A DNA stretch of 64,000 nucleotides. Origin: Bacteroidales bacterium (lineage in GTDB: Bacteria; Bacteroidota; Bacteroidia; Bacteroidales; UBA932). The stretch is taken from positions 1 to 64,000 of the forward strand of contig JAFPWG010000011.1 in the NCBI GenBank assembly GCA_017395045.1, in the 5' to 3' direction. The stretch's first letter is position 1. Every line of letters starts with the position of its first letter. The notes under the pieces were generated by a model. That model made no database searches. It saw nothing but the letters and a program-made list of their open reading frames with translations, and had not been told where the DNA came from. Position numbers and translations under genes: made by a program. This document shows, in pieces, positions 35,138 to 54,497 of this stretch.

Positions 35138-36046
35138 ATGGCTCTGGTATTTGACATCAAACGATACGCCATCCACGACGGACCCGGCATCCGCACCACC
35201 CTTTTCCTGAAAGGATGTCCCCTCCGCTGCGTATGGTGCCACAATCCGGAAAGCTGGTCTCCGAACCGGCAAAGACTCTACAAACAAGCCAAATGCATCG
35301 GCTGTTCCTCCTGCGTGAAGGCCTGCCCGGAAGGGGCCCTGGAACTGACGCCGGACGGCATCAAACCCACCGGGAACCCCTGCATCGTCTGCGGCAGCTG
35401 CGCCGAGGCCTGTCCCGCCCTCGCGATGGAGATCTGCGGCCGGGAATGGCCCCTGGAGGAGCTGATGGCTGAAATGGAAAAAGAGCGCGGTGTCATGACC
35501 GACAGCGGCGGAGGCGTCACCCTGAGCGGCGGTGAACCGCTGCTTCACCCGTCCTACACGCTGGAACTGCTGGAAGAACTGGGCCGGCGGGGTTTTCACC
35601 GGGCCGTGGACACGACCCTTTTCGCCGCACCGGATACAGTCCGCGCCGTCGCTTCCGCCTGCGACCTGTTCCTGGTGGACCTGAAAGTGATGGATTCCGA
35701 TACGCACCGGCGCTATACCGGCGTCCCCAACGAGCCTATCCTGGACAACCTCCGACTCATCGCCTCCCTTGGGAAGCCCTACTGGATCCGCATCCCGCTC
35801 ATTTCCGAGGTCAATGCCTCCGAGGCGAACATCGCCGCCACCGCCGGTTTCCTGTCCTCCCTGGACCGTCTGCCCGACGAAGTGGACCTCCTCCCCTACC
35901 ACGACATCGGCAAGGGCAAGCACGAGCGCCTGGGAACCGTGTATAATCCAGCGGCTTTCCCTCTCTCCGCCCCTTCGAAAGAAGTTCAGGCCCGCTGCAC
36001 CGCACAACTGGAAGCAGCAGGCCTGACGGTCAAGGTCGGAGGATGA
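35138..36046 (+). CDS. hypE: Glycyl radical enzyme activase (radical SAM)
   Basis: 302 aa. Radical-SAM motif C-x3-C-x2-C at residues 27-34 (CPLRCVWC), preceded by DGPGIRTTLFLKG. An inserted ferredoxin domain has two [4Fe-4S] motifs, CIGCSSCVKACP (53-63) and CIVCGSCAEACP (82-92), as in class I activases of the HypE/CutD/GlyRE type. The SAM motif GGGVTLSGGEPLLHP follows. It abstracts H from the glycine of its partner enzyme. It is convergent with the glycyl radical enzyme gene, with only 4 nt between their stops, an unusual arrangement because activases are usually co-directional. Confidence 0.92.
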   Translation: MALVFDIKRYAIHDGPGIRTTLFLKGCPLRCVWCHNPESWSPNRQRLYKQAKCIGCSSCVKACPEGALELTPDGIKPTGNPCIVCGSCAEACPALAMEICGREWPLEELMAEMEKERGVMTDSGGGVTLSGGEPLLHPSYTLELLEELGRRGFHRAVDTTLFAAPDTVRAVASACDLFLVDLKVMDSDTHRRYTGVPNEPILDNLRLIASLGKPYWIRIPLISEVNASEANIAATAGFLSSLDRLPDEVDLLPYHDIGKGKHERLGTVYNPAAFPLSAPSKEVQARCTAQLEAAGLTVKVGG

Positions 36047-36050
36047 TTCC

Positions 36051-38450
36051 CTACAGGTCGTCGTTCTCCGTCCGGGCGATGATCTCGTTCTGGAGCTGCG
36101 CCGTCATGTCGTTGAAATAGTCGGAGTAGCCGGCGACGCGGACCAGGAGGTCGCGGAAGTCGTCCGGATTCTTCTGCGCCTCGCAGAGGGTTTCCGTGTC
36201 CACGATGTTGAACTGGATGTGGTGCCCGCCCAGCTTGAAGTATTCGCGGATGAGCTTGCCGAGTTTCATCACCTCCGCATCGGTCTTCAGCAGGGCCGGA
36301 ATGAAGCGGACGTTCAGCAGGGTGCCGCCGCTCTTGGTCTGGTCCAGCTTGCCCAGGGAACGGACCACGCAGGTAGGGCCCTTCGTGTCGGAGCCATGGG
36401 CCGGGGAGGTTCCGTCGGAGATCGCGAAATGCGCGAAGCGGCCGTTCACGGAGGCGCCGCACACCTGGCCGAAATAGTTGTGGCAGGTGGTGGACAGCAT
36501 GTTCAGCTGGGTCTTGCCGCCCCGGGTGTTGGGCCGCCCTTCGATCGCCTTCACCAGGTCGTCATACACGCGCACCGCGATGTCGTCGGCATACTTGTCG
36601 TCATTGCCGAAGAACGGGGTGTGGTTGCGGATGTACAGACGCATGGGCTCGGCGCCTTTCCAGTCGTCTGCAACGGCCTTAAGCATCTGGTCCATCGTGT
36701 ATTTGCCCGTTTCGAACACGTGTTTCTTCAGGGTGGTGAAACAGTCCGTGATGGTACCCAGACCGGTACACTGGATGTAGGTGGTGTTGTACCTTGCACC
36801 TCCGCTGTAGTAGTCCTTGCCCTTGTCGATGCAATCCTCGATATACAGGCTCAGGAAGGTTGCGGGGGCGTACAGGGAGAACATCCGCTCGATGTAATTA
36901 TTCACACTGAGTTTCAGGTTCACGAAATACACCATCTGCCTGTGCCAGGCGTCGTACAGTTCCTCGAACGTCTTGAAACCGCGCGGATTGCCGGTCTCCA
37001 GGCCGATCTTCTTGCCGGTCTCCGGATCCACACCGTTGTTCAGGGTGATTTCCAGGATCTTCGGGGTGTTCAGGTAGCCTGTCAGCAGATAGGCTTCCTT
37101 GCCGAAAGCACCCACCTCGATACAGCCGGAACAGCCGCCTTCGCGGGCGTCCTCGAGGCTTTTGCCCTGGCGTACCAACTCCTTGACGTAGGTGTCCGGA
37201 TTGAACACCGAAGGGTAGCCGTGGCCCAGGCGGATGACCTTGATGCCTGCGGCAAGGAACTCGTCGGGGGTGTTCTCCGCGATATGGATGCTCAGGCCCG
37301 GCTGCAGCTCGTGCAGTTCCTCCTGGATCTCCAGGATCATGTAGGAGAGGTCGTTCACGCCGCTGTTGCCGTACCGGTCGATACCGCCGATATTGATGTT
37401 CGTAAAGTCGTTGTACGTACCGGACTCCCGGGCAGTGATGCCCACCTTGGGCGGCGCAGGCTGGTTGTTGAACTTGATCCAAAGGCAGCAGAGCAGTTCC
37501 TTCGCCTTGTCATAGGTAAGGGTACCGTCCTCCAGGCCCTTCCTGTAGAAGGGATAGAGGTGCTGGTCGATGTGGCCGGGGTTCATGGAATCCCAGCCGT
37601 TCAGTTCGGTCACCGTGCCCAGATGGACGAACCAGTACATCTGGATGGCTTCCCAGAGGTCGCGGGGGGCATGGGCCGGAACCCAGTGGCACACGGAGGC
37701 GATCTTCTCCAGCTCCGCCTTGCGGACCGGATCGGCGCACTTCGCGGCCATTTCCTCCGCCAGGGCGGCATGGCGCTCAGCCAGCAGGATGGCGGCGTCG
37801 CAGGAGATGGCCATCGCCTCGAGCTCCTGCTGCTTGTCCGTGGCTTCGGGATCGTTGATGTAATCCAGGGCCGCGATATTCTTCCCGATCCGGGCCTTCA
37901 TGTCCAGGAGTCCCTCACGATACATCCGGCCGTCCATCGCCGTGTGGCCGGCGGCGCGCTGCTCCATGAACTCGGTGAAAACACCGGCGTGGTAGGCCTC
38001 CTCCCACTCCTTGGAGACGTGGTTGAAGATCCGCTCCCGCTGCGTCTTGCCCTTCCAGTAAGGAATCACTTCCCGCTCATACGTGTCGATGTCTTCCTGG
38101 CTGATATGGTAAGTCTGCAGTTCGCGGGTATCCAGCACATGGAGGTCCTCCACGCTGTGACAGGTGAGTTCCGGAAACGTCGGAACCGCCTTCGGTTTGG
38201 GGCCGCGCTCGCCCACGATCAGTTCGTCCGGACCGATGTACAGCGTTTTCTTCGCGCAGATCTCGTAGAAGATTTTCGCGCGCAGCACGGCGATCGGGTA
38301 TTTGCCGTAGTTCTCCTTGTAGAACGCGGTCTCGATGAGGGCACGTTCGATGGTAAGGGTAGCCGGCGTTTCCACGCTCTCCCGGCGGAGACGCTTGATC
38401 CTCGGATTCATTCCCCCGTCATTCTCAGGGTGCTTGATGGTGAATGCCAT
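36051..38450 (-). CDS. hypD: Glycyl radical enzyme, trans-4-hydroxy-L-proline dehydratase-like
   Basis: 799 aa. The thiyl motif GGCSGCIEVGAFG gives Cys443 and Glu445, the dehydratase-type G-C-x-E. The glycyl motif RVAGYSDYF gives Gly774. Residues that I recall as active-site positions in C. difficile HypD (Cys434, Glu436, His160, Asp278, Ser334, Phe340, Thr645, Gly765) all have identical counterparts here at a constant offset of +9 (His169, Asp287, Ser343, Phe349, Thr654). HypD removes water from hydroxyproline to give (S)-1-pyrroline-5-carboxylate. Lying 4 nt downstream of an Xaa-Pro aminopeptidase and near P5C dehydrogenase supports this. ATG at 38411 is an alternative start. Confidence 0.85.
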   Translation of the reverse strand: MAFTIKHPENDGGMNPRIKRLRRESVETPATLTIERALIETAFYKENYGKYPIAVLRAKIFYEICAKKTLYIGPDELIVGERGPKPKAVPTFPELTCHSVEDLHVLDTRELQTYHISQEDIDTYEREVIPYWKGKTQRERIFNHVSKEWEEAYHAGVFTEFMEQRAAGHTAMDGRMYREGLLDMKARIGKNIAALDYINDPEATDKQQELEAMAISCDAAILLAERHAALAEEMAAKCADPVRKAELEKIASVCHWVPAHAPRDLWEAIQMYWFVHLGTVTELNGWDSMNPGHIDQHLYPFYRKGLEDGTLTYDKAKELLCCLWIKFNNQPAPPKVGITARESGTYNDFTNINIGGIDRYGNSGVNDLSYMILEIQEELHELQPGLSIHIAENTPDEFLAAGIKVIRLGHGYPSVFNPDTYVKELVRQGKSLEDAREGGCSGCIEVGAFGKEAYLLTGYLNTPKILEITLNNGVDPETGKKIGLETGNPRGFKTFEELYDAWHRQMVYFVNLKLSVNNYIERMFSLYAPATFLSLYIEDCIDKGKDYYSGGARYNTTYIQCTGLGTITDCFTTLKKHVFETGKYTMDQMLKAVADDWKGAEPMRLYIRNHTPFFGNDDKYADDIAVRVYDDLVKAIEGRPNTRGGKTQLNMLSTTCHNYFGQVCGASVNGRFAHFAISDGTSPAHGSDTKGPTCVVRSLGKLDQTKSGGTLLNVRFIPALLKTDAEVMKLGKLIREYFKLGGHHIQFNIVDTETLCEAQKNPDDFRDLLVRVAGYSDYFNDMTAQLQNEIIARTENDDL

Positions 38451-38454
38451 TGAA

Positions 38455-39828
38455 TTATGCTTGTTTTGCAGCGTAGACTTCCTCCAGGGTCATGGGCTTT
38501 TTCAGGGAGCCCAGGACGCGGCAGCCGTCTTCGGTGATCAGGTAGTCCAGTTCGTTGCGGAGACCGCCGAAATCCTTCCAGGCCTCGAACCGGTCGTAGT
38601 TGATGAATTCCTTGAAACGGCCTTCGGCCTTCCAGTAGTCGATGAGCTCGGGCATGAAATAGATGCCGGGCTCCACGGTGAACACGAAACCGGGTTCCAA
38701 CGGACGAGCCAGGCGCAGCGACTTGAATCCGAACTGCTTGCTCTTGACCATTCCGTCGGCATAACCGACGAACTGCTCGCCCAGGTTCTCCATGTCGTGC
38801 ACGTCCAGGCCCATCATGTGGCCCGTCCCGCAAGGGAACACGAGCGCATAGGCGCCGCTCTCCGCGATGTCGCGGGGATTGCCCCTCATCAGGCCCAGGT
38901 CCACCATGCCTTCGGCAATCGCCTCGGCGGCGGCCAGATGCGCATTCCGGTACGGATTGCCGGGACGGAGCTGGTCTACGGCCGCATAGAAGCTGCGCAG
39001 GCACATATTGTATATGAGCTCCTGCCTTTCGGTGAAGCGTTCGCCGACCGGCATCGAGGAAGACAGGTCGCCCGCATAATGCAGCGGATTCTCGGCGCCG
39101 GCGTCCAGCAGGAACATGTCACCCTCCCGAAGCATATGCACGAAACCGTGGTTGTGAAGGACCTGCCCGTGCGTAGTGGCGATGGTCGGGAAAGCCAGGC
39201 TGCAACCCGGCCGGCAGGTGGCCTCCTGCAGCACGGCAGCGGCGATTTCGGCCTCGTGCACGCCCGGGCGGGCCATCCGGTACGCGATGAGATGCATCCG
39301 GGTGGAGATGTCCACCGCCTCTTCGATGGCGGCGACTTCCTCCGGGGTCTTGTGGTTCCGCATGTTGACGACGGCCCTGACGAAGGCCTCATCGGCGCGC
39401 TGCTCCCTGGGAGCGAAGCCCAGCAACTGCTGCAGCCAGACTTCATGGTCGCCCCGGTACGGCGGAAGGAAACGGACCTTGCGACCGGCCAGTTTCCCCT
39501 TCAGGGCCGACAGCGGAAGCGTCTTCCCCACCCCCACCAGGGCCGCATTGTCCTCAAGGGTAGGCATCGTGCCGGTCCAGACGATATCGTCGATGGTCAG
39601 TTCGTCGCCGAAAATGATTTCTTCGTCATGGTCGATGTCGATGACGGCGGCGAGACCGGCCTGGTCCAGGCCGAAGAAATACAGGAAGGTGCTGTCCTGG
39701 CGGAACGGGTACTCGTTGTCATGATAATTCATGCCGACGAGCTGGTTTCCCAGGAACAGAAGGACACCGTCGCCCACCTCTTTCCTGAGGCGGGCGCGGC
39801 GGTTGACGTAAGTTTCTTTGCTGAACAT
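38455..39828 (-). CDS. Xaa-Pro aminopeptidase (M24, AMP_N)
   Basis: 457 aa. An aminopeptidase-P N-domain (about 1-160) is followed by a pita-bread domain with the dinuclear metal ligands: Asp in FLLDAGAENPLHYAGDLSSS (two Asp), His in CGTGHMMGLDVHD, Glu in FTVEPGIYF and Glu in ITEDGCRV. It releases an N-terminal residue preceding proline, and so probably hydroxyproline. No signal peptide, so it acts on imported peptides. Directly upstream of hypD (4 nt) and 1 nt after the metallopeptidase-like gene. Confidence 0.9.
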   Translation of the reverse strand: MFSKETYVNRRARLRKEVGDGVLLFLGNQLVGMNYHDNEYPFRQDSTFLYFFGLDQAGLAAVIDIDHDEEIIFGDELTIDDIVWTGTMPTLEDNAALVGVGKTLPLSALKGKLAGRKVRFLPPYRGDHEVWLQQLLGFAPREQRADEAFVRAVVNMRNHKTPEEVAAIEEAVDISTRMHLIAYRMARPGVHEAEIAAAVLQEATCRPGCSLAFPTIATTHGQVLHNHGFVHMLREGDMFLLDAGAENPLHYAGDLSSSMPVGERFTERQELIYNMCLRSFYAAVDQLRPGNPYRNAHLAAAEAIAEGMVDLGLMRGNPRDIAESGAYALVFPCGTGHMMGLDVHDMENLGEQFVGYADGMVKSKQFGFKSLRLARPLEPGFVFTVEPGIYFMPELIDYWKAEGRFKEFINYDRFEAWKDFGGLRNELDYLITEDGCRVLGSLKKPMTLEEVYAAKQA

Positions 39829-39829
39829 A

Positions 39830-40693
39830 CTAATGCGTACGGCTGTTCTCTTTGGTACACTCGTTCACGAACTTGTGTCTGGAAATCTGCTGGTCCGTGG
39901 CGGGGAAGTATTCCGCAAGAAGCTCGTACAGACCCGGGTCGCGTTCCTTCAGTTCGTCTCGGGTGTTCACGTAATTGTGCTTGCCGTCGGGATGGTCCAT
40001 CTCCGCGTTCACGTTGAACCAGTCCTGGACGCCTTCGGCGAAATACTCGGCGATGTCCGTCAGGCGGTAGGTGTTCCACCAGAGATCCTTCTCCTTGGCG
40101 TTCCGGAGCAGGGCTTCAAGCCTTTCATTGATGTCCGGATCCACCTGCACGATGCCCACGAGGTGGATCGAATGGGCGAATTCGTGGATGAGGATGTCTT
40201 CTGCGTGGTACTTGTCGATCTGGTAGCCCAGCACGTTCTCTTCCGCGCAGGAAGTGAGCGGGAACTCGAGGTCACCGCCCAGGCCGCGGGCCCGGAGGTC
40301 CCAGTTCAGGGTGGTGTCGTTCACGAGGTACCTGTGCTCCGGGACATCCGTCGTACCTTCGTACCGGCCCATCATCGTCACGCGCGTGCCCGCTTTGCGC
40401 AGGGCGTCCATCACCTCGTCCGACAGCATGGAGGTCATCGCCCACAACGTATTGTGGCCGGCGACCAGCGCGCTGTCGGGGCAGCGCCAGGACGAGCACA
40501 GCGGGATGCCGTTCACATCGACATATTTCTTGTACCAGGGATCCAGATGCAGGGAATCCGGCGGGGTCGTGATCACGCACTCCGGGATGCCCAGGGCCTC
40601 CACGAAGTCCACCTCCGCCTGCTTCGGTGCCGTCCTTCCGCAGGAAAAGACGAGCAGCCCGATACACAGGACCGATATTACGGATACTTTCAT
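39830..40693 (-). CDS. Zinc-metallopeptidase-like lipoprotein (HExxH), unknown family
   Basis: 287 aa with SPII signal GLLVFSCGR. The core motif is ILIHEFAHSIHLVG (HExxH, about residues 176-180), and about 47 residues later DIAEYFAEGVQDWF supplies a candidate third ligand Glu, the spacing and flavour of gluzincins such as the anthrax-lethal-factor-like fold, which includes Pro-Pro endopeptidases. I do not recognise the exact family. In a cluster for prolyl-peptide breakdown, a proline-directed endopeptidase is attractive but unproven. Stop is 1 nt before the M24 ATG region, so it is coupled to it. Confidence 0.7.
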   Translation of the reverse strand: MKVSVISVLCIGLLVFSCGRTAPKQAEVDFVEALGIPECVITTPPDSLHLDPWYKKYVDVNGIPLCSSWRCPDSALVAGHNTLWAMTSMLSDEVMDALRKAGTRVTMMGRYEGTTDVPEHRYLVNDTTLNWDLRARGLGGDLEFPLTSCAEENVLGYQIDKYHAEDILIHEFAHSIHLVGIVQVDPDINERLEALLRNAKEKDLWWNTYRLTDIAEYFAEGVQDWFNVNAEMDHPDGKHNYVNTRDELKERDPGLYELLAEYFPATDQQISRHKFVNECTKENSRTH

Positions 40694-40710
40694 CTCTATA
40701 CAATATTTTT

Positions 40711-40790
40711 TTGAGGACGGTTCCTTTCCGGCTCCTGTCGCTTCGCGACCCTATACAGGTAAATGTCGCCGGAAAGGATAGCGTCCTCAA
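40711..40790. repeat. Long intergenic hairpin element
   Basis: An 80-nt imperfect inverted repeat: TTGAGGACG (711-719) pairs with CGTCCTCAA (782-790), then after a 3/4-nt internal loop CCTTTCCGGC (723-732) pairs with GCCGGAAAGG (768-777). The 35-nt apex can form either GTCGC-TTC-GCGAC (737-749) or CCTGT/ACAGG (734-738/755-759), which exclude each other. It lies between pruA and the metallopeptidase-like gene with no U tract after it on the minus strand. Confidence 0.75.
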
Positions 40791-40794
40791 ACTA

Positions 40795-42420
40795 CTACTT
40801 CATGTAGGTGTAGCGGTAGTCAGTCGGGGAAACGAGGGTTTCCTTGATGACTCTGGGGATGATCCAGCGGATGAGGTTGAACTCCCCGCCGGCCTTGTCG
40901 TTGGTACCCGAAGCGCGGGCGCCGCCGAACGGCTGGTTGCCCACAACGGCTCCGGTAGGTTTGTCGTTGATGTAGAAGTTGCCGGCCGCATAGCGGAGGG
41001 CGTCGGTGATCTTCTCCACGGCCAGGCGGTCGCGTCCGAACACGGCACCGGTCAGGCCATACGGGGAGGTGGTGTCGCAGAGCTTCACGGCCTCGTCGAC
41101 CTTGTCGTCATCGTACGGGAATACGGTGAGGACCGGGCCGAAAATCTCCTCTTCCATGGACTTGAAGTGCGGATCGGTGGTCTCGATGACGGTGGGCTGC
41201 ACGAAGTAGCCGACGCTCTTGTCGCGGCCGCCGCCCATCACGACCTTCGCGTCGGGAGACTGCTCGGCGTAGGTGATGTAGCTGTCGATATTGTTCCAGG
41301 AGGCCTCGTCGATGACCGCGTTGATGAAGTTCGTGTGGTCGCGGACGTCGCCCATCTTCACTTCGGAGGCGTACTGTTTCATGATGCCCAGGACCTCCGG
41401 CCACAGGCTCTTCGGGATGTACATGCGGGAGGCAGCGGAACACTTCTGGCCCTGGAACTCATAGGCGCCGCAGAAAGCGGCGGTGGCGACGGCCTTCGGA
41501 TCGGCGCTCGGGTGAACGAAGATGAAGTCCTTGCCGCCGGTCTCGCCCACGAGACGGGGATAGCTCACGTACTTCCCGAGGTTCTCACCCGCCTGGCGCC
41601 AGAGGCTGTTGAAAGTGCCGGTGGAGCCGGTGAAATGGATGCCGGAGAACCACTTGGAAGAGGTCGCGACCTTGCCGATGAGGGCGCCGCTGCCCGGGAG
41701 GAAGTTGATGACGCCGTCCGGAAGGCCCGCTTCCTTGTACAGCTGCATCAGGTAGTAGTTCGAGAGGGTGGCGGTGGTGGACGGCTTCCAGAGGGCGACG
41801 TTGCCCATCAGGACCGGAGTCATGCACAGGTTGGAGGCGATGGAGGTGAAGTTGAACGGGGTCACCGCCAGGATGAAGCCTTCCAACGGACGGTATTCGG
41901 TGTGGTTGATGTTCATGTAGCCGTCCTTCGGCTGCATGCCGTAGATCTTCGCCGCATAGTGCACGTTGTAGCGGAAGAAGTCGATGGTTTCGCAGGCGGA
42001 GTCGATTTCGGCCTGGTAGATGTTCTTGGACTGGCCCAGCATGCACGCAGCGTTCATGATGGGACGGTATTTCGTGGCCAGGAGTTCCGCCATTTTCAGG
42101 ACGATGGCGGCACGGGTGGTCCAGGGGGTCTCTGACCAGACCTTATGGGCCTTCATCGCGGCCTCGACGGCCATTTCCACTTCCTTCTCGCCCACCTTGT
42201 GGAAGGTGGCCAGCACGTGCTTGTGGTCGTGCGGGCATACCACCTTGCCGGTGTTGCCGGTACGGATCTCCTTGCCGCCGATGATGATCGGGATGTCCAG
42301 GACGGTATTCCACTGGCGTTCGAGTTCGGCGTCGAGGGCGATTCGCTCCGGGGAGCCTTCAAGATAAGCTTTCACCGGCTCGTTGGCCGGAACGGGGAAG
42401 TTGAGGATTGCGTTGTTCAT
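40795..42420 (-). CDS. pruA: L-glutamate gamma-semialdehyde (P5C) dehydrogenase
   Basis: 541 aa ALDH-superfamily enzyme oxidising P5C/glutamate semialdehyde to glutamate with NAD+. Motifs: the ALDH4-type N-terminus NEPVKAYLEGSPERIALDAE, GFILAVTPFNFTSIASNL, LVGETGGKDF with the general-base Glu, FQGQKCSAASRMY with the catalytic Cys, and GAVVGNQPFGGARASGTNDKAG. It would consume the P5C made by HypD. Own -7 box at 42451. No proline dehydrogenase or P5C reductase is in the window. Confidence 0.95.
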   Translation of the reverse strand: MNNAILNFPVPANEPVKAYLEGSPERIALDAELERQWNTVLDIPIIIGGKEIRTGNTGKVVCPHDHKHVLATFHKVGEKEVEMAVEAAMKAHKVWSETPWTTRAAIVLKMAELLATKYRPIMNAACMLGQSKNIYQAEIDSACETIDFFRYNVHYAAKIYGMQPKDGYMNINHTEYRPLEGFILAVTPFNFTSIASNLCMTPVLMGNVALWKPSTTATLSNYYLMQLYKEAGLPDGVINFLPGSGALIGKVATSSKWFSGIHFTGSTGTFNSLWRQAGENLGKYVSYPRLVGETGGKDFIFVHPSADPKAVATAAFCGAYEFQGQKCSAASRMYIPKSLWPEVLGIMKQYASEVKMGDVRDHTNFINAVIDEASWNNIDSYITYAEQSPDAKVVMGGGRDKSVGYFVQPTVIETTDPHFKSMEEEIFGPVLTVFPYDDDKVDEAVKLCDTTSPYGLTGAVFGRDRLAVEKITDALRYAAGNFYINDKPTGAVVGNQPFGGARASGTNDKAGGEFNLIRWIIPRVIKETLVSPTDYRYTYMK

Positions 42421-42450: not shown

Positions 42451-42458
42451 CAAATGTA
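42451..42458 (-). promoter_or_regulatory. -7 element of pruA
   Basis: TACATTTG on the minus strand, 30 nt before the pruA ATG. It suggests separate expression from the upstream hydrolase operon; the 27-bp element of that operon is not present here. Confidence 0.55.
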
Positions 42459-42485: not shown

Positions 42486-44528
<2,043 letters not shown>

Positions 44529-45785: not shown

Positions 45786-48698
45786 TTACAAAGTCTTCAG
45801 GGCCTCTTCCAGGCGGACGCGGGCGCGGTCGATGAAATCCTTCGTGCCGGATCCGTCATTGACATACTGGATCACCATGTCGGCGAAGTCGATGGCCTCG
45901 CGGAGTTCCGTACTCTTGTTCGGAATCTCCTTCGTTTCCACCACCAGGCGCAGCAGGGCATCCAGGTCCTCCGGCTCGGCCAGGTTGCCGGGACGCATCG
46001 TGTTGATGGCGGCGTTCAGGGCCGACGTCGCCTTGGTGACGGCCTCCTGCTTCAGGGAGCGCGGCTTCGCGGCGAACACGGTTTCGGCGGCCGCAAGCTG
46101 CTCCAGCATCCGCGCATAGCCGTTCGGCGCCCAGGGCGCGAAGGCGGGGACCTTGGTTTCCAAGGCATTCCAGGCCTCCTGCGCAGCCACGCGGGAACGG
46201 GCGATCCGGATGGCCTGGTCCAGGTAGGTCTTGTCCACGCCCCGGGTTCTCTTCGCTTTCCGGCCCTCGGTCAGGACATTCAGACGCAGGTAATGCGTAC
46301 TGTGGTCCGTCAGGTAATAATCAGGATAGAAAGTCTTGTCGCCCAGGGTGAGGGTATAAACGTTTCCGTTGGTACCGGCGTCTGCGGTATGGCCTTTCAG
46401 GACGATATCGGAAAGGTCGGGCGTCAGCTCGAACTCCGCCTGCTCCCAGACGGTGATGTCGGGCGTGGCCATCACCAGCGGTCCGTACATCAGCGTTCCT
46501 TCCCACATCGGAGCGAACGGGGTGCGGGCCTCATTGACGCCCGTGGCGGCCAGGTCCATCTTGTCCGGGCCGAAGTTCAGATGCTTGCCGAAAGGCATCG
46601 TCACCACCACGCGGTCACCGGCCTTCCACTCGCGCTCCGGGATCTCCACGTAGGACGAGGGCTGACAGGAGGCAGTCACCTCCTTTCCGTTCAGTTTCAC
46701 GCCGAAACCCTCCGTGGCCCAGTACGGGACGCGGAGTTTCATCGCAAACCGACCGCCCTTGTCCACCGTGATGACGGACTGTTCGGCAGGCCAGGCGCAT
46801 TCCTGACGAAACTCCACTCCCCTGGCCTCCCAACGGGCGGTCGTGGGCAGGTACAAGGCCACCCAGACCGTGTTGTCAGACACAAAATAGGCCGCTTCCT
46901 GGTATTTGACGTGGTTCTCGGAACCCGTGCCGCCGCAACAAGTGGACTGCGGCGTCTCGCTGCCGAACGGTTTCGCGGCGTTCATCCCCACGGCATACTG
47001 GTAGCACACGCCGTATTCGGTCGGATGGACCGACCCGACGATCTGGTTGTACAGGACCCGTTCATAATAATCCATGTAGCGGGCGTCGTCCGGATCGAAT
47101 CCGTTCAGGTCCCGGGTAAGCTTCGCCAGGTTGTAGGCGCAGCAGGTCTCGTTGATGTCCGGGTTCGGGAAGATGTCCCGGTTCCGGTCGGACATCACGC
47201 TGGTGTTCAGGCTCATCATCTGGGAATAGGGCTGGCGGAACATCTCTCCGTTGCCCACGCCGCCCGTCGCATAGGCGTAGCGGCCCTGGACCATCTCCCA
47301 GAAGTTTCTGGCAATGTGGTAGTAATAGGGATTCCCTCCCTCCCGGTACACGTTCAGCGCGCCCACGATCATGGGGATGTGCTGGTTCGCATGACGGGTG
47401 CGGATATCGTCTATGTTCTTCGACAGCGGGTCGTAGAAAGCGGGTGAATCGAAACACAGCGCCGCTTCCAGCAGGCGGGCCTTCTCCGTGGGATCGGCCG
47501 TCAGGGCGGACAGGCGCGACAGGGATTCCTGCATGCCTCCCACCTCGCCGGCGATGTACATGTTCCACATTTCATAGCGGTTGCCGGGCCGGGCCTGGCG
47601 CTCCGCCTTGTCCCCGTCCCGCTTCACGTAGGTGCGGTAGTGCAGGCGGTTCCACACCCAGAGGCCCATGTCCTTGGCGATGAGGAGCGCCTTGGCGGCC
47701 AGGGCTTCGTCGTCCACGTTCAGCGCGATGTCGATGAGGCCCGCCAGCTGCTTGTGGATGGAATAATAGGGAGCCCACACGCCGATCTGGTTATTGTAGG
47801 GAGAATATTTTTCGATGAGGACGGGATGCTGGGCTGGAATCGCATTGATGTAGCCGTAACCGTAAGACCGGCAATCCTTCTTGTAGCGGTCGAAAGCCTC
47901 CCACGTCCCTTCCAGGGCAGGCATTTCCTCTTCCGGGACCAGGTCGCGGGCCTCCCGGTAGCGGCCCAGTTCATCGTCCCAAACGAACGTAAGTTCCTGG
48001 CAGGCACGGAGTTCATCCACCATCCGGCGGATCCGCGCCTTGAGTTCCGCCTTCACGGCGGGGTCGTCCGTGCCGGCATAGGCAAAGGCCAGAGCCGACA
48101 TGTAATGGCCCGAACCGTGCCCCTTGAGCTTGGTGGTCGGGGAATCCCAGCCGTCGGACTCGGTATAACCCTCCGTGCTCAGGCCATAAGTGTCACGATA
48201 GTTGTACAGTTGCTGCGTGATATCCAGCGACAGGAGGTTCCGGACATCCAGGTCCCGGTTGGAGGTGAGGCGGTTGTCTCCGATGAGGCGGACGCTTCCC
48301 AGCGGAAGGGGCGCCGCCACCGGTGCGGAAGCCGGTACGCTCCCCGATCCGGGAACCACCTTCACCTTCGCGTCCAGCGGATAGCCGTTGTCCGTGGTAT
48401 TGTCTCCGATGACATACCCCCGGACGACATATTCCGATCCGACCGGGAGGGAGGCCTCCTCCTCTTCGGTTTCCCGAAGGGAATTGGTCCACTTGACCTG
48501 TCTCCACCCGCCGGTATTGTCGGCATAGGTAACCCATACCAGATAAGGGAGTTGCGGGGCGGTACCCTCCGGCGCCTCGACCATGACGGAAGCCGTTTCG
48601 CGGATGGTCCGCGGGGCTTTCCTGCGGGAACGGGCGGGAAGAGGCGCTGCTGCGAGCACCAGTGCCAGGGTCAGAAAGAGAAGGTGAGAACGTTTCAT
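45786..48698 (-). CDS. GH127/GH146-type beta-L-arabinofuranosidase with Ig-like and helical domains
   Basis: 970 aa, signal peptide ending PLPARS. A bacterial-Ig-like domain (about 30-115; LPYLVWVTYADNTGG) precedes the PF07944-type (alpha/alpha)6 barrel (about 150-640). The zinc-thiolate centre is visible: Glu517-x-Cys519 (NETCCAYN) and Cys587-Cys588 (STCCGGTGSEN), as in HypBA1, where a cysteine is the nucleophile. A C-terminal helical region (about 830-970) is of unknown role. Second gene of this family in the operon. It starts 23 nt after the CotH stop and ends 8 nt before GH27. Confidence 0.88.
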   Translation of the reverse strand: MKRSHLLFLTLALVLAAAPLPARSRRKAPRTIRETASVMVEAPEGTAPQLPYLVWVTYADNTGGWRQVKWTNSLRETEEEEASLPVGSEYVVRGYVIGDNTTDNGYPLDAKVKVVPGSGSVPASAPVAAPLPLGSVRLIGDNRLTSNRDLDVRNLLSLDITQQLYNYRDTYGLSTEGYTESDGWDSPTTKLKGHGSGHYMSALAFAYAGTDDPAVKAELKARIRRMVDELRACQELTFVWDDELGRYREARDLVPEEEMPALEGTWEAFDRYKKDCRSYGYGYINAIPAQHPVLIEKYSPYNNQIGVWAPYYSIHKQLAGLIDIALNVDDEALAAKALLIAKDMGLWVWNRLHYRTYVKRDGDKAERQARPGNRYEMWNMYIAGEVGGMQESLSRLSALTADPTEKARLLEAALCFDSPAFYDPLSKNIDDIRTRHANQHIPMIVGALNVYREGGNPYYYHIARNFWEMVQGRYAYATGGVGNGEMFRQPYSQMMSLNTSVMSDRNRDIFPNPDINETCCAYNLAKLTRDLNGFDPDDARYMDYYERVLYNQIVGSVHPTEYGVCYQYAVGMNAAKPFGSETPQSTCCGGTGSENHVKYQEAAYFVSDNTVWVALYLPTTARWEARGVEFRQECAWPAEQSVITVDKGGRFAMKLRVPYWATEGFGVKLNGKEVTASCQPSSYVEIPEREWKAGDRVVVTMPFGKHLNFGPDKMDLAATGVNEARTPFAPMWEGTLMYGPLVMATPDITVWEQAEFELTPDLSDIVLKGHTADAGTNGNVYTLTLGDKTFYPDYYLTDHSTHYLRLNVLTEGRKAKRTRGVDKTYLDQAIRIARSRVAAQEAWNALETKVPAFAPWAPNGYARMLEQLAAAETVFAAKPRSLKQEAVTKATSALNAAINTMRPGNLAEPEDLDALLRLVVETKEIPNKSTELREAIDFADMVIQYVNDGSGTKDFIDRARVRLEEALKTL

Positions 48699-48721
48699 CT
48701 TTCAGGTTTGTTTGGTGGTTA

Positions 48722-50035
48722 TCAGCGGACTGGATAGTTTCGGATGACCCGGTCCAGGTAGTTAAATCGGTTCGTAAGCCAGGTGTGCAGCTTACGGTAT
48801 TCTTCGGCGTGGCGGTAATTGGTTATCCCCCACCGGTCCATATCCTCCTGCGCCGTCCGGCCGATCAGGGCTTCCGTCTCCTCCAGGCAGGCAAGCAGTC
48901 CGGAAAGGAGCCGTTCATGGTTGTCGGACCATTCCTTCTGCAGCAGTTTTACGAACTCGGGGATGCCGAACAGGTAGCAGAAGAAGTCGGAAGGCGTGCT
49001 GCCGTAGGCTCCGGTATGGTAATAGGGGTCGGTTCCGAAAATCAGGGTCCTGTAGCTCTCGAAGAAGGTATGGCCCCTCCCGTGGTAGTCGTACATGTCG
49101 CCCCAGTTGTAATTGAAGCCGCCGTCGCAGTCCCACAGCGGGCCCATCACCCACAGGGAATCGTCGTCGTGCCGGTGGATGAATCCGCTGCGCATGCTGG
49201 GGTAATTGTCCATCTCCACGTTGGAAATGATCTCCTGGATGAGGATGTAGCGTGCCATCGATTCCACGTCCAGTTCCCGCTTCACAGCCGCCCAGTCCTC
49301 ACTCTCGATGGCCCGCTCCAGGAAGGCGAATTCATCCTTGACGCGGTTCCGGACCGTCTTGTCGGCGTCTTCCGGATACTTCACCGCGGCCGCCATGTCA
49401 AACACCTCGGACCAGAAATTGTTCGTAGCCCGGGGTTCGTCATCCGGCCCGTCGTTGATGTCCAGGGCCAGGAGGATCCCCTCTTTCGGATCCAGCCGGA
49501 CCCGGTGCCCGCCCTCTTCCACCTGCTCCGTGACCATATACAGGCCCAGGTCCTCCCCGTTCAGGGTGACGGTGGCATAGCGGACGTGATTGGCATAGGG
49601 AAGGCCCAGCTCCTTCGCGAGATAAAACCCGACGAGGTTCATCATGTGGGTGACGTCCCGGTAATCGGCCAGCAGGACCCAGTCCTTGTTCGGGGCCATT
49701 CCGAGGAACGACGCGGAAGCGTCCAGCTTGATCCGGTAGGGTTTCTTGGGATACCAGTTCCAGGTAGAGTTGCCCCGGCCGCGGATCCTTCCCCGCGCCT
49801 CCAGGGCATACTCCTCCGACCCCGACACCTTCACGGTGCAGGGACGGTACTTGGCGGGATCCTTGGAATCCACCGCTGCACCTTCGTCCGTCGTGATGTC
49901 GATGCGGGCGATGACGTCCGCGGTGAAACTCACCTCACCGGAGAAAGGCTTCCCTTCCTTCTCGTCGATGACGTCCTTCCCGCAGGAAAGGACTCCGAAA
50001 AGGAACAGGACAGATATGATCTTCCGGAGACTCAT
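48722..50035 (-). CDS. CotH-like protein kinase lipoprotein
   Basis: 437 aa from MSLRKIISVLFLFGVLSCGK; the longer frame lies in the GH51 gene and is rejected. SPII lipobox VLSCGK. CotH_kinase features: ARGRGNSTWNWYPKKPYRIK (ATP-site region), LVGFYLAKELGLP, LGLYMVTEQVEEG and MGPLWDCDGGFN with the metal-binding Asp. CotH proteins phosphorylate serines of secreted proteins, or bind glycans in some Bacteroidota loci. Its ATG overlaps the GH51 stop (ATGA). Function in this operon is unknown. Confidence 0.85.
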   Translation of the reverse strand: MSLRKIISVLFLFGVLSCGKDVIDEKEGKPFSGEVSFTADVIARIDITTDEGAAVDSKDPAKYRPCTVKVSGSEEYALEARGRIRGRGNSTWNWYPKKPYRIKLDASASFLGMAPNKDWVLLADYRDVTHMMNLVGFYLAKELGLPYANHVRYATVTLNGEDLGLYMVTEQVEEGGHRVRLDPKEGILLALDINDGPDDEPRATNNFWSEVFDMAAAVKYPEDADKTVRNRVKDEFAFLERAIESEDWAAVKRELDVESMARYILIQEIISNVEMDNYPSMRSGFIHRHDDDSLWVMGPLWDCDGGFNYNWGDMYDYHGRGHTFFESYRTLIFGTDPYYHTGAYGSTPSDFFCYLFGIPEFVKLLQKEWSDNHERLLSGLLACLEETEALIGRTAQEDMDRWGITNYRHAEEYRKLHTWLTNRFNYLDRVIRNYPVR

Positions 50036-52065
50036 TTCCGATGGAATCTGTACACGGCGAAGGTCCGGCCTCCCAGCCGCCCGCTGAAGGCGATGCGGCC
50101 GCCGTCGAGGTTGCGGACCCCCAGGAGCCATTCATTGGCCGGGTCGGCCACCGGCGTGAGATCCAGCGTTTCCGTGACGGGGACGATCCGGGAAGGTTCG
50201 TCCAGGGTATTCTCGTCCACGGGATTGTCGCTGTGGAGGGTGGTCCTTTCGGCCGCGGTCAGGCCACCGGGCAGTTCGAAGGTGACGACCTGCGAATACG
50301 CGCCCAGGTTGGCGATCTTGATGATCAGGTCGCCCGTGGCGTCGTCCACGGCGCAGGTGGCGTTCAAGTCTCCGGCATTCACGACCGGTTTCCCGCCCAT
50401 GGTCAGGGGAAGCACCCGGCTGCCTTTGTTGGCGGAATAAAGCTGCTGGACGTAGTAGCTGCAGGAGCGCATGACACGCAGGTTATCGAACCAGATGAGG
50501 TCCGGACGCCACTGCCAGCCTTCCACGTGGGCGAAAGTAGGGGCGTAGCTGGACATGTAGACGACATCCGCATTGCGCTCCAGACCGGTCATGAAGGAAG
50601 CCTCCAGGAGGGCGGCATTGAAGTGGTTGAGCTTCCTGCCGTCGGAGCCGTGGCAGGCGTATTCGCCCGCAAAGACCTTGGGGCCGGTGCGGGGATAGCG
50701 GTCATAGCGGTCCGCATTCCGTTCGAAAAAGCGCTCGTTACTGTAATAATGCTCGTCCACGAGGTCCACGTCCAGGCGGCGCATTTCAGCCCAGAGGTCG
50801 TCGAACCATTCCCCGCCGAGGTAAGGTCCCGAAGTACCCACGATCCGGATTTCAGGGTATTTCGCGCGGACAGCCCGCAGGAAGGGTTCGAAACGCTCCT
50901 TGAACCGTTCGCCCCACTGCTCGTTGCCGATGCCCAGGTACTTGAGGTTGAAGGGTTCCGGGTGGCCCATCTGCGCACGGACTTTTCCCCATTTGCTCCT
51001 GACGGGGCCGTTGGCGAACTCGATGAGGTCCAGGGCGTCCTGGATATAGGTGCCCAGTTCGTCCAGCGGGCAGTCGGGATCCGTCGCCGGATCGTTCTCG
51101 AACTGGCAGGCCATGCCGCAGCTGATGATGGGGACCGGCTCGGCGCCGATCTCCTCCGCCAGGCGGAAATACTCATAGAATCCCAGGCCGCCGCTCTGGT
51201 AATAGTCCGGGAACATCCGACCGAACTGGTCGTAGGTCCACCGGTTGACGTTGATGGGACGGTTCTCCACCGGGCCCACGGTATTCTTCCACTGGTAGCG
51301 GTTCTCCAGGGTCGTTCCTTCCACGATGCATCCGCCCGGGAAGCGCAGGATGCCGGGGTGCAGGTCCGCCAGGGCCTGCGCCAAGTCCTTCCGGAGACCG
51401 TTATCGTCCCCGTTGAAGGTATCCGCCGGAAACAGGGAAACATGCTCGACATCCACTGCGGCATCGTGGTTTTCATCCCACAGGAGCAGCCGGAAGGCCC
51501 CTTTCGCTACGGTGCGGGGGGCCGTGAGCATGACCTCGTACTTCGTCCATTTGGATGAAGTCACGGTGATTTCCTCCAAGGCGAGGTTCTGGTCATCCGC
51601 CAGGGTGGAAGGCTCGCAAAGGACGGCCAGGAGGCCCGTGGATTTGGGTTTTCCGGCCGTACGGGCCCAGAAGGTGAGCCGGTACTGCTTCCCCTCTTCC
51701 AGGCCGATGCCGAACCAGCCGCCGTTCTCCAGGCCGCACTGCGCAACCGGATGTCCGGGATACCTCAGCCGGACAAAATGGGGATTCCGGTCGAAGGGAC
51801 CGCCCTGGTCCAGGACCTCCACCTTGCCGAAGGTCTTCCAGCCCTGGAGCGGGTTGTCATACTCGAAGGAGCGGTTGCAGATTTTCTCCGCATACAGGCC
51901 GCCATCCGCCGCGAAGTTGATATCCTCCAGGAAGATGCCGTACATCGTCGGCTGGACGGGGATTCCAGCCGCAGTATCATCTACGACCATATAAGTCCCC
52001 CGCGGCTGGGCCGACAGGGCCGCCGCGGAGAGAAACAGGGCGAGAAAAGCAACAGCCTTTTTCAT
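50032..52065 (-). CDS. GH51 alpha-L-arabinofuranosidase, exported
   Basis: 677 aa from MKKAVAFLALFLSAAALSAQ. The start is chosen because it overlaps the GH127 stop (ATGA) and begins a signal peptide. A carbohydrate-binding-like region (about 40-215) precedes the GH-A clan barrel: Glu382 in GIGNEQWG is the acid/base and Glu468 in VFAGEYACH the nucleophile. A C-terminal beta-sandwich follows. It removes alpha-L-arabinofuranose from arabinan, arabinoxylan or Hyp-Ara4 tips; neighbours favour the last. Coupled to GH127 and to CotH by 4-nt overlaps. Confidence 0.9.
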   Translation of the reverse strand: MKKAVAFLALFLSAAALSAQPRGTYMVVDDTAAGIPVQPTMYGIFLEDINFAADGGLYAEKICNRSFEYDNPLQGWKTFGKVEVLDQGGPFDRNPHFVRLRYPGHPVAQCGLENGGWFGIGLEEGKQYRLTFWARTAGKPKSTGLLAVLCEPSTLADDQNLALEEITVTSSKWTKYEVMLTAPRTVAKGAFRLLLWDENHDAAVDVEHVSLFPADTFNGDDNGLRKDLAQALADLHPGILRFPGGCIVEGTTLENRYQWKNTVGPVENRPINVNRWTYDQFGRMFPDYYQSGGLGFYEYFRLAEEIGAEPVPIISCGMACQFENDPATDPDCPLDELGTYIQDALDLIEFANGPVRSKWGKVRAQMGHPEPFNLKYLGIGNEQWGERFKERFEPFLRAVRAKYPEIRIVGTSGPYLGGEWFDDLWAEMRRLDVDLVDEHYYSNERFFERNADRYDRYPRTGPKVFAGEYACHGSDGRKLNHFNAALLEASFMTGLERNADVVYMSSYAPTFAHVEGWQWRPDLIWFDNLRVMRSCSYYVQQLYSANKGSRVLPLTMGGKPVVNAGDLNATCAVDDATGDLIIKIANLGAYSQVVTFELPGGLTAAERTTLHSDNPVDENTLDEPSRIVPVTETLDLTPVADPANEWLLGVRNLDGGRIAFSGRLGGRTFAVYRFHRK

Positions 52066-54497
52066 TTGACCTCCCACTCGAAGATTCCGGCGGAAAGCTC
52101 CGCAGGCAGGTCGATCTCGATTTTCACGGCCGACGTAATCACCGGCTCGAACTGCACCTCGCAGGCGCGGTCCTTGTCGACCGGATAGCCGGACGGATTC
52201 TGCACCTTCGCCCAGTTGCCGGCGGCATCCTTGTAGTACATGCGCCAGGCCGCCGGAAGGTCGCAGCCGCCCCAGGGCTGGTCTTCAAACCACCATACGG
52301 AACTGCGTGACACCTTTGCGGGTGCGGCGAATTCATAGACGATCCACTCGGTTCCGCCCTGCTTGGGCCACCAGTGGTAATACGGAGCGGAACGGTCGCC
52401 GCCATGCTGGGGAACCAGCTGGTCGTTCACGGAGGTGAGAGCCCGGGTGGGCGTGGAAGCGCTTACCTTGCTCTGGGAAGCGAGAGTGGCGGGCTTGGAG
52501 GGAAGCGTGTAACGCAGGTCCTGCGGCAGCCATACGGCCATCTCGCCGCTGCCCCGATGGCACCAGGCATAGTACGGGATGAGCGTCAGTTCCACGTCCC
52601 GTGTGGCCAGGCGGCCGTCCTTGCCGAAAGAGAGCGTCTGCGCCCGCGTCGCGATCTTGTCGATGCCGTACAGGTCATTCGTATGCCGGACGGCGAACTG
52701 CGGATCCTGGTTCATCAGGACGCTCCGCACGGAAAAGCCCGCGTTGTCAGGCCATTCGGCGCAGTACACCACGGGACCCTTCTCCACGGCGATGCGGCCT
52801 TCGTCGGCCTTCACGCGGCTGTCGGCCTTCACCACACGGGGCTCCATGTCGAAATGGATGGTTACCTTGTCGCCCTGCTTCCACCTGCGGTTAATGGTAA
52901 AATAGCCTTTCTCCAGGGCGCTTTCCACGACGGTTCCGTTCACTTTCACGGTATAGCCGAGACGTTTGCCGTCCACATAGGAGTACAGGCTGGAGGGAAC
53001 TGCCTCGCCGCGGACCCAGCCGGGAATGCGGACCTTGAGGGCCATCTCCTTCCTGAGGGCGGTTTTGTCCACGGTGATCTCCACGTCGCCCTTCCAGGGA
53101 TAGTCCGTCTTCTGGCTCAGGGTGATCTCCCTTCCGAGCACCTTCTGCGTGAGCGTGTTGGGCATGAACAAGTTCACGTACAGGGCATCGTCCTTTGCGG
53201 CATACACGTAACCTGGGACGGACGGAATGAACCGGCAGATGTTGGAAGGGCAGCAGGCGCAGCCGAACCAGGCCTGGCGCTGATGCTGACCGATGGACTC
53301 CAGCGGGTTGGGATAGAAGAACCCGTTCCCCTCCAGGGACACGCCGCTGATCAGGCCGTTGTACAAAGTCCGCTCCAGCACGTCATAGTATTTGGAATCA
53401 CCGTGCAGGAGGAACATCCGGTAGTTCACGTAAACGTTGCCGATGGCGGCGCAAGTCTCGCAGTAGGCGCTCATGTTCGGGAGCTGGTAGTTGTCCCCGA
53501 AGGCCTCGCCGTTGTTCGTGGCGCCGATACCGCCGGTGATATACAGTTTCTTGGAGACGATGTTCTCCCAGATACGGTCGATGGCGTCGATGTAACCCTG
53601 GTCGCCGGTAAGGGCGGCCACATCGGCCATGCCGGCGTACATATAGGCGGCGCGGACCGCGTGGCCCACCGCCTCGTCCTGCTCCAGGACCGGCACGTGC
53701 GACTGGTTGTACGGATCGTTATGGCCCGTCTTTCCACGCTCGTCCAGGAAGAACTTGGCCTCGTCCAGGTATTTTTTCTCGCCGGTGGCGAGATAGAGTT
53801 TCGCCAGGGCCATCTCGGCGATCTGGTGTCCGGGGACCACCCGGGCCTGGCCGGAGCCGGAGCCCACTTCGCGGACCACGCAGTCCGCATAACGGATGGC
53901 GATGTCCAGGAAATTCCTCTTGCCGGTGGCCTGCCAGTGGGCGATGGCGCCCTCCACCATATGGCCCAGGTTGTACAACTCGTGGCTCAGGTCCTCGTCC
54001 TTCACCCAGCGGCGGTCCCCCGCCCACTCGTGCGGATGCTCGGGATTCATCGTCCGGGCCGTGTACAGGTAGCCGTCCGGCTCCTGCGCCGCGGCGACGA
54101 TCACGAGGACGCTGTCGATATAGGCTTCCAGTTTCTTGTCGGGATAGGTCTGGAGCACATAGGAGGCGCCTTCGATGGTCTTGTACACGTCGGTGTCGTC
54201 GAAGGAATAACCCTTCACCTCATAACCCAGGTTCACGGGGGAATGCATCTGCCGCTCCGCCTTCACGAAATTCTCATAGCGGCCCTCGCTCTCGCACTTG
54301 GAGAATGCCAGGGGGATGGTGACCTCGCGGGAAGCCTTCAGGCGCTGCCCCCAGAACGAATCGGGAGCGACTTTCACGCTGGTAAAAGGCACGGGATCGA
54401 TGGGATACCCGCCGGAGGCAGGGGTGGAAGCGGGCTGAGCCGACACCGTCGCGGCGACGAGGACGCCGGCAAGGGCAAGGGAAAACTTATCAGTCAT
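52062..54497 (-). CDS. GH127 beta-L-arabinofuranosidase (HypBA1-like), exported
   Basis: 811 aa from MTDKFSLALAGVLVAATVSA; the 19-codon upstream extension overlaps the promoter and is rejected. Residues 40-420 form the barrel with Glu347-x-Cys349 (YCETCAAI) and Cys415-Cys416 (CACCPSN), matching HypBA1's Glu338, Cys340, Cys417 and Cys418. HypBA1 removes beta-linked L-arabinofuranose from hydroxyproline-linked oligosaccharides. A C-terminal discoidin-like region (SSVWWFEDQPWGGCDLPAAW) may bind carbohydrate. First gene of the hydrolase operon, under the 54520 promoter and the 27-bp element. Confidence 0.93.
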   Translation of the reverse strand: MTDKFSLALAGVLVAATVSAQPASTPASGGYPIDPVPFTSVKVAPDSFWGQRLKASREVTIPLAFSKCESEGRYENFVKAERQMHSPVNLGYEVKGYSFDDTDVYKTIEGASYVLQTYPDKKLEAYIDSVLVIVAAAQEPDGYLYTARTMNPEHPHEWAGDRRWVKDEDLSHELYNLGHMVEGAIAHWQATGKRNFLDIAIRYADCVVREVGSGSGQARVVPGHQIAEMALAKLYLATGEKKYLDEAKFFLDERGKTGHNDPYNQSHVPVLEQDEAVGHAVRAAYMYAGMADVAALTGDQGYIDAIDRIWENIVSKKLYITGGIGATNNGEAFGDNYQLPNMSAYCETCAAIGNVYVNYRMFLLHGDSKYYDVLERTLYNGLISGVSLEGNGFFYPNPLESIGQHQRQAWFGCACCPSNICRFIPSVPGYVYAAKDDALYVNLFMPNTLTQKVLGREITLSQKTDYPWKGDVEITVDKTALRKEMALKVRIPGWVRGEAVPSSLYSYVDGKRLGYTVKVNGTVVESALEKGYFTINRRWKQGDKVTIHFDMEPRVVKADSRVKADEGRIAVEKGPVVYCAEWPDNAGFSVRSVLMNQDPQFAVRHTNDLYGIDKIATRAQTLSFGKDGRLATRDVELTLIPYYAWCHRGSGEMAVWLPQDLRYTLPSKPATLASQSKVSASTPTRALTSVNDQLVPQHGGDRSAPYYHWWPKQGGTEWIVYEFAAPAKVSRSSVWWFEDQPWGGCDLPAAWRMYYKDAAGNWAKVQNPSGYPVDKDRACEVQFEPVITSAVKIEIDLPAELSAGIFEWEVK

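Follow-up and report, generated by a model that had tools for sequence, protein, structure and literature searches.

Which substrate could bring arabinose-removing enzymes, prolyl peptidases and hydroxyproline catabolism together in one region of the genome of a gut Bacteroidales bacterium? The question is raised by a stretch of Bacteroidales bacterium (UBA932; assembly GCA_017395045.1, 42 contigs, 2.67 Mb), namely positions 1-64,000 of contig JAFPWG010000011.1, which was analysed over its whole length and is referred to here as the window (C13:1-64000). In an island of 18 genes, beta- and alpha-L-arabinofuranosidases, an alpha-galactosidase and several peptidases adjoin a trans-4-hydroxy-L-proline (Hyp) dehydratase (HypD), its activase (HypE) and a pyrroline-5-carboxylate (P5C) dehydrogenase (PruA). 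We conclude, with a probability of roughly 0.7, that this island is a utilisation locus for hydroxyproline-rich plant glycoproteins (HRGPs), which are structural proteins of the plant wall, most likely those of the extensin type. The conclusion draws on gene content, family membership, conserved linkage, co-occurrence and domain fusions, all observed here. An initial annotation of the window had already proposed an extensin-type locus, and gene content, linkage and co-occurrence support that proposal, with extensin as the probable member of the glycoprotein class.

Gene content of the island

The features of the island are as follows.

33084-35087, minus strand: S9b, secreted prolyl-oligopeptidase-family peptidase (Peptidase_S9 PF00326, 2e-43)
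35138-36046, plus strand: hypE, radical-SAM glycyl-radical activase (NF043069 best model, TIGR02494 above cut-off)
36051-38450, minus strand: hypD, trans-4-hydroxy-L-proline dehydratase by sequence, a glycyl radical enzyme (NF043068)
38455-39828, minus strand: aminopeptidase P-like Xaa-Pro peptidase (M24), probably cytosolic (PF00557 and AMP_N PF05195)
39830-40693, minus strand: lipoprotein, predicted Pro-Pro-endopeptidase/lethal-factor-like metallopeptidase (HEFAH...EYFAE)
40694-40794, minus strand: 101-base spacer with a long hairpin (sequence and fold)
40795-42420, minus strand: pruA, L-glutamate gamma-semialdehyde (P5C) dehydrogenase (TIGR01236)
42451-42458, minus strand: TAnnTTTG promoter-like box ahead of pruA (motif scan)
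42486-44528, minus strand: S9a, secreted S9 peptidase with DPPIV-type propeller (PF00930, PF00326)
44539-45762, minus strand: GH27 alpha-galactosidase (Melibiase_2, 6e-73)
45786-48698, minus strand: GH127b, 970 residues, GH127/GH146-like, probable beta-L-arabinofuranosidase (PF07944, 193 bits)
48722-50035, minus strand: CotH-kinase-like lipoprotein (PF08757, 7e-41)
50032-52065, minus strand: GH51 alpha-L-arabinofuranosidase (PF22848, PF06964)
52062-54497, minus strand: GH127a beta-L-arabinofuranosidase (PF07944 408 bits, PF20736, PF20737)
54632-57556, plus strand: AraC-type regulator with Reg_prop propeller and Y_Y_Y (profile matches)
57770-61345, plus strand: SusC-like TonB receptor with C-terminal OmpA domain (PF00593, PF00691)
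61363-63303, plus strand: SusD-like lipoprotein (PF07980, PF14322)
63338-64000, plus strand: DUF4859 (x3) protein, only its start in the window, running to contig position 65278
C13:65346-67649 and 67646-69454, beyond the window: two DUF6055/M106 proteins

Reading frames and codon-position composition support genes at or very near the coordinates claimed earlier, and every gene that the initial annotation had named is an open reading frame there, with its family assigned by profiles. Its list did not include the CotH-kinase-like lipoprotein, the second S9 peptidase on the far side of the activase, the regulator, SusC/SusD and, beyond the window's end, the two DUF6055 proteins. The CotH-kinase-like gene sits inside the single hydrolase operon that it described. 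An adjoining SusC/SusD pair, a regulator and glycosidases together give the layout of a polysaccharide-utilisation locus. Signal sequences were judged by eye, and the cell locations given here rest on that.

Hydroxyproline catabolism

By sequence, HypD is a real trans-4-Hyp dehydratase. It scores 1131 bits against NF043068 (curated cut-off 1100), its nearest solved structure is the C. difficile enzyme 6vxc (904 bits), and Cys434, Glu436, Gly765, His160, Asp278, Ser334, Asp339, Thr645 and Phe152 are all identical to 6vxc (9/9; C. difficile numbering, alignment read by eye, chain offset 20). The roles of most of these active-site positions are described in the part of PMC7077986 available to us. 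The convergent hypE gene, separated from hypD by 4 bases, has NF043069 (T4HPD activase) as its best model with 318 bits, below the cut-off of 425, and is above the cut-off of TIGR02494. PruA reaches 750 bits against TIGR01236 (cut-off 614), and its presence here suggests oxidation of P5C to glutamate. The HypD-like dehydratase with its activase and the P5C dehydrogenase that had been named from the letters of the window thus hold, the nearby activase by its best model under the cut-off.

Recent arrival of hypD from Prevotella was considered and rejected, as the HypD tree (quick method, unrooted) groups all 10 same-genus rows used on a single side of 28 rows. The rows of genomes with the linked layout form several subclades within this side. 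S9b adjoins hypE in relatives; at L035:5331-11105, in another genus (g16), it stands directly before a hypD that is 87% identical, with hypE divergent.

GH127b tracks hypD within the genus

Among 300 same-genus genomes, the window's own counted in, 20 have a hypD orthologue (83-100% identity), a number that leaves aside G308 with its HypD relative at 50% identity. GH127b was found in 36/300 and pruA in 32/300. GH127b is present in 19 of the 20 hypD genomes vs 17 of the 280 without hypD (Fisher p 3e-19; 19/21 counting G308) and pruA in 15 of the 20 (p 9e-13), p-values which overstate the number of events because the genomes are related and not independent. A control GH127, taken from contig C42 of the window's genome, where there are two GH127-type genes, occurs in 50/300 genomes, 4/20 with hypD vs 46/280 without (p 0.75); its orthologue line of 53% identity was set after viewing the listing, in which copies at 53-100% are followed by paralogues at 46-50%. 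The GH127b-hypD link is more than chance. For GH127 and HypD genes, the co-occurrence search that had been proposed as a check in the initial annotation was positive, GH127b following hypD and the control GH127 not.

A housekeeping pruA lying here by chance was also rejected, given the small number of same-genus genomes that carry it and its position 12 bases after S9a in the relative G153. As a separate observation, pruA adjoins a GH127 gene at G293:C20:68449-72090 and G210:C17:29362-32981, and hypD was not found in either genome.

Physical linkage and transcription units

Of the 19 genomes that have both genes, 8 carry hypD and GH127b on the same contig within 45 kb (G000, G436, G375, G361, G186, G153, G358 and G425; own genome included). 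In G151 the hypD contig and the GH127b contig each break off within a part of pruA, and in the remaining 10 the two genes lie on different contigs of draft genomes. Synteny of the sugar-removing genes with hypD, on whose presence in relatives the earlier proposal had been made to depend, was thus found.

A compact arrangement is seen in G153, where GH127a, GH51, CotH, M61, GH27, S9a, pruA, the lipoprotein and M24 form one co-directional run with spacings of -4, 3, -1, 10, 6, 12, 3 and -1 bases when early ATG/GTG starts are taken. With the later starts of the gene caller some gaps become 53 to 153 bases, and those of S9a-pruA-lipoprotein-M24 are still 12, 3 and -1. hypD is next after M24, its frame broken and cut by the contig end. 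On the strand of this run, TAnnTTTG boxes were seen only directly before GH127a and within the M61 gene. In G355 and G358 a single strand carries SusC, SusD and M106, followed by pruA, M24, hypD and hypE; called gaps here are up to several hundred bases. Between pruA and M24, G355 has an M64 IgA-type peptidase gene (L166:18471-19703), and G358 has a gene for a lipoprotein and one for another HExxH protein. Another layout, hypD-hypE-GH127b with GH127b directly after hypE, is found in G425 and L129. Judged by length, two pairs of these stretches are single contigs (L117 with G358, L123 with G355). Gene calls on relatives' stretches came from simple callers with missed genes and starts, so that counts are lower bounds; the islands of relatives were annotated in part, and the GH27, CotH and GH127a query sequences were a few residues too short or too long at the start.

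In the window, TAnnTTTG boxes, which we take to be the Bacteroidota promoter motif, precede GH127a, pruA and S9b, the pruA box being one of 10 on that strand in 64 kb. The gap between pruA and the lipoprotein gene holds a long symmetric hairpin (-46.5 kcal), which may be a terminator, an attenuator or a mobile repeat. Separate transcription units for pruA and hypD, as had been stated at the outset, are plausible in this genome from the boxes and the hairpin, but the same genes lie much closer together in G153.

Sugar-removing enzymes

GH127a is nearest to 6ex6 (1041 bits), which we take to be BT3674 of Bacteroides thetaiotaomicron, and scores 345 bits against 3wkw, presumably HypBA1. Its catalytic, middle and C-terminal GH127 domains are all above cut-off, and the motifs ETC at 366 and CC at 434 presumably provide the zinc-binding Glu/Cys and the nucleophile Cys of GH127. 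GH127b is far from solved members (best 5opj, 164 bits), is above the PF07944 cut-off, and carries both motifs together with extra N- and C-terminal parts; an assignment as aceric-acid hydrolase was rejected at 57 bits vs a cut-off of 950. The two GH127/GH146-type genes first described are present, and they differ strongly in sequence. Among solved structures, GH27 comes closest to the alpha-galactosidase 6f4c (360 bits), and GH51 scores 282 bits against MgGH51 (6zps). No beta-galactanase, glucuronidase or rhamnosidase was detected by Pfam among the 18 island genes from S9b to the second DUF6055, and this set, with arabinofuranosidases and an alpha-galactosidase and without a beta-galactanase, favours extensin over arabinogalactan-protein (AGP).

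Peptidases, lipoprotein and DUF6055 proteins

S9a consists of an S9 catalytic domain with a propeller and carries GYSAGG at 553. Its match to the bacterial DPP-IV 2d5l is distant (189.7 bits), and the region of the DPP-IV Glu anchor falls in an alignment gap, in a loop that presumably holds the Glu pair anchoring the substrate N-terminus. Because of this gap, 'DPP-IV' is to be read as 'S9 with propeller'. The DPP-IV-type peptidase named initially is accordingly retained as an S9 peptidase with propeller and a possible dipeptidyl peptidase. The Xaa-Pro aminopeptidase is borne out by PF00557 and AMP_N PF05195, and no signal peptide was visible by eye in its sequence.

The metallopeptidase-like lipoprotein named earlier at 39830-40693 indeed has HEFAH at 170 and EYFAE at 216. 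Its 41 orthologues share HEFxH and EYxAE, with H170, E171, H174 and E216 invariant across the 41 aligned rows. As a single sequence it had no Pfam match below 0.01 and found nothing useful in the PDB. Across its family, the lethal-factor domain ATLF (PF07737) matches 25/41 members (best 4.9e-5) and Peptidase_M90 matches 32/41 more weakly (best 0.0071). Its AlphaFold model (pLDDT 73.9, weak within 111-159) gave PPEP-3 (9g0j) as the top Foldseek match (probability 1.00, E 8.9e-3, TM 0.41/0.55), followed by lethal factor, and no match at E 0.001. With modest scores, the lipoprotein is predicted from its model to be a Pro-Pro-endopeptidase-like metallopeptidase, and such a fold would fit its carriage in a hydroxyproline operon.

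Proteins with DUF6055 recur in relatives, their cluster being present in at least 10 of 18 stretches, and HEIGH or HELGH is found in 19/19 aligned copies, with HExxH intact. A DUF6055 protein has been assigned to MEROPS M106, a family that lacks a proper description according to the part of PMC11241649 available to us. In G436 a DUF6055 protein is fused to GH27 (L158:17218-19737; same cluster in G361 and G375), and a GH97 alpha-galactosidase (592 bits to 3a24) is fused to a DUF6055-like part with HELGH at L117:16211-19405. Ser in extensin carries alpha-Gal, and two different fusions of DUF6055 with alpha-galactosidases point to a protein substrate bearing alpha-Gal.

Two new peptidase roles in a dedicated extensin-to-glutamate pathway may follow, a joint reading which we put forward tentatively and hold to be rather doubtful as a whole. 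The lipoprotein, encoded in the hydroxyproline operon across herbivore-gut Bacteroidales, would be a Pro-Pro-type endopeptidase specialised for Hyp/Pro stretches, and the M106 (DUF6055) proteins would be surface glycopeptidases working with GH27/GH97 alpha-galactosidases on Ser-Gal extensin.

Broad peptide and glycopeptide scavenging with no single substrate could also account for so many peptidases, since the islands of relatives add M61, C69, S41 tricorn-like and M64 peptidases to M106 and S9, and L129 has GH3 and GH9-like genes near hypD. We consider this explanation very improbable: the glycosidases of the island itself are arabinofuranosidases and an alpha-galactosidase only, and M106 occurs in fusions with two families of alpha-galactosidase.

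Weighing the extensin-type reading

Several observations weigh against an extensin-type locus, among them the GH3 and GH9-like neighbours in L129 just mentioned and the relatedness of the genomes counted. There are 17 same-genus genomes that have pruA and lack hypD. A GH127b tree of 17 rows places its 15 hypD-positive rows together on the same side of one branch, with only two negative rows for comparison. A fold search with the DUF6055 model gave no useful match for the catalytic part. No GH121 was noticed, although no search aimed at GH121 was made. pruA and hypD of the window are probably on their own transcripts, judging from the boxes and the hairpin. The remaining points are given with two competing explanations.

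The strongest competitor, still unlikely in our view, takes AGPs, which are also Hyp-rich, as the substrate. GH127a and GH51 would then trim arabinose side chains and GH27 alpha-Gal, and HypD would use Hyp from the AGP backbone. GH127a being closest to 6ex6, this explanation gains from the reported activity of BT3674, which aids exo-beta-1,3-galactanases on larch arabinogalactan (PMC10850190, in the part available to us), and from the listing of BT3674-87 as an arabinogalactan locus in the accessible part of PMC3243724. The Prevotella communis locus described below holds a GH43, not assigned to a subfamily, that could be a galactanase. A strategy directed at AGP side chains only is possible; set against all this is the lack, by Pfam, of a beta-galactanase, a glucuronidase and a rhamnosidase among the 18 island genes.

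The other competitor, which we judge improbable and less so than scavenging, holds that an arabinan locus of the pectin type adjoins, by chance, a functionally independent operon for proline and hydroxyproline in general, for example from collagen peptides. pruA has its own promoter-like box, and further evidence for this explanation comes from outside the genus, from the best 80 of 572 HypD relatives in named genomes (77-95% identity). Many titles of these loci name ruminant stomach compartments or deer or horse faeces, and the strains include Prevotella communis E15-14 and P. aff. ruminicola Tc2-24. A core of pruA-lipoprotein-M24-hypD-hypE recurs, with the lipoprotein in 42/80 loci, hypE in at least 64/80, M24 in at least 40/80 and pruA in at least 23/80, the last three counts being minima owing to contig ends and a simple gene caller. 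The recurrence of the lipoprotein speaks for the HRGP reading. Within 10-kb flanks, the hypD operon of most of these 80 lacks the glycosidases of the window. When the 50 loci on contigs of at least 37 kb were taken, hypD had a GH127-type domain no more than 45 kb away in at least 7 (G441-G444, G465, G471 and G473); among the matches listed, that of G466 is ~123 kb away.

P. communis E15-14 has its sugar genes and its hypD operon at different places, the nearest of five GH127-type genes lying ~410 kb from hypD. The separate sugar locus, whose gene set speaks for the HRGP reading, comprises a hybrid regulator, a DUF4859 protein, M106, GH43, CotH, GH127b, S9 and GH127a. Of six fetched Prevotella stretches, two (P. 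communis and G556) have GH127a, S9, CotH and M106 beside GH127b and the other four, some of them on short contigs, do not; no relative of the window's SusC/SusD was seen in any of the six. Also in favour of the HRGP reading, the two genes still co-occur among 150 genomes of the P. communis genus: hypD was found in 23 and GH127b in 19, with both in 9/23 vs GH127b in 10/127 without hypD (p 3.5e-4), the centre genome, picked for having hypD, being among the 9.

Two independent units are difficult to reconcile with linkage in different layouts, with co-occurrence even where the genes are unlinked, with a control GH127 that does not co-occur, and with the presence of peptidases in both units. Utilisation of HRGPs, most likely of extensin type, is preferred.

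Regulator, SusC and CotH-like genes

No kinase or receiver domain was found in the regulator by profile search, whereas the P. communis regulator (L176:1638-5498) is a full hybrid; the cluster of the window's regulator is present in at least 8 of the 18 examined stretches. The SusC frame opens at TTG and no signal peptide is visible, which makes the start given here provisional. A similar OmpA-type tail occurs in the SusC of G436 and G186, and a SusC-OmpA fusion is, to our knowledge, unusual. Several relatives, and P. communis as well, have a CotH gene in their locus. Elsewhere in the genome of the window, a GH127 gene (L002:910-4117) lies 1 base from a gene for a CotH-like protein that is 28% identical to the window's CotH, and this pairing recurs.

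Proposed pathway

From these observations we infer the substrate, the order of steps, the cell locations and co-regulation. Surface lipoproteins (SusD, the DUF4859 proteins, the M106 metallopeptidases and the CotH-like protein) would bind and cut the glycoprotein, and SusC would import the pieces. GH51 would take off the alpha-L-Araf tip, GH127a and GH127b would remove the beta-L-Araf chain on Hyp, and GH27 the Ser-linked alpha-Gal. The bared Pro/Hyp-rich backbone could then be cut by the Pro-Pro-endopeptidase-like lipoprotein and the S9 peptidases, with the M24 aminopeptidase P acting in the cytosol. HypD, once activated by HypE, would dehydrate free trans-4-Hyp to P5C, which PruA would oxidise to glutamate.

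Discussion

HRGP deglycosylation itself is already known. In Bifidobacterium longum, HypBA1, HypBA2 and HypAA (GH127, GH121 and GH43) are clustered, according to the available parts of PMC6085000 and PMC7263609. Like that system, the island clusters both alpha- and beta-L-arabinofuranosidases, here predicted to act on Hyp-linked arabinosides, and it differs in having GH51 in place of GH43 and, in addition, an alpha-galactosidase, peptidases, SusCD and HypD/PruA. It is also similar to the XeHypBA1/BA2/AA region of Xanthomonas euvesicatoria, which combines HRGP deglycosylation with an adjoining prolyl oligopeptidase gene, broken in Xanthomonas; as that region is described in the part of PMC6085000 available to us, the island adds hydroxyproline catabolism.

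With B. thetaiotaomicron BT3674-87 the island shares a GH127 enzyme in the locus, probably the nearest solved relative of GH127a if 6ex6 is BT3674, whereas that locus targets arabinogalactan. We know of no HypD, pruA or prolyl peptidases in BT3674-87. HypD and HypE belong to the same enzyme family as those of C. difficile (6vxc). C. difficile reduces P5C to proline, whereas pruA here suggests oxidation to glutamate, and hypD here adjoins a glycan locus. The lipoprotein has PPEP-3 as its top fold match and differs from it in being a Bacteroidales lipoprotein of 18% identity over 209 columns. GH127 was also taken as evidence of extensin use in a prediction for Latescibacteria, for which the available part of PMC4454575 describes neither a locus nor a Hyp catabolic enzyme; the same source, of 2015, regards information on extensin degradation pathways as limited.

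No report joining HRGP deglycosylation with HypD was found in the open-access literature. What would be new is a locus of the polysaccharide-utilisation type extended to proteolysis of the backbone and catabolism of its amino acid. The island names two candidate peptidase families, and P. communis E15-14 is a carrier of both halves with a complete genome. Collagen is the hydroxyproline source named for gut HypD in the part of PMC9044972 available to us; if the reading given here is true, plants would also be a source of the hydroxyproline used by gut HypD enzymes.

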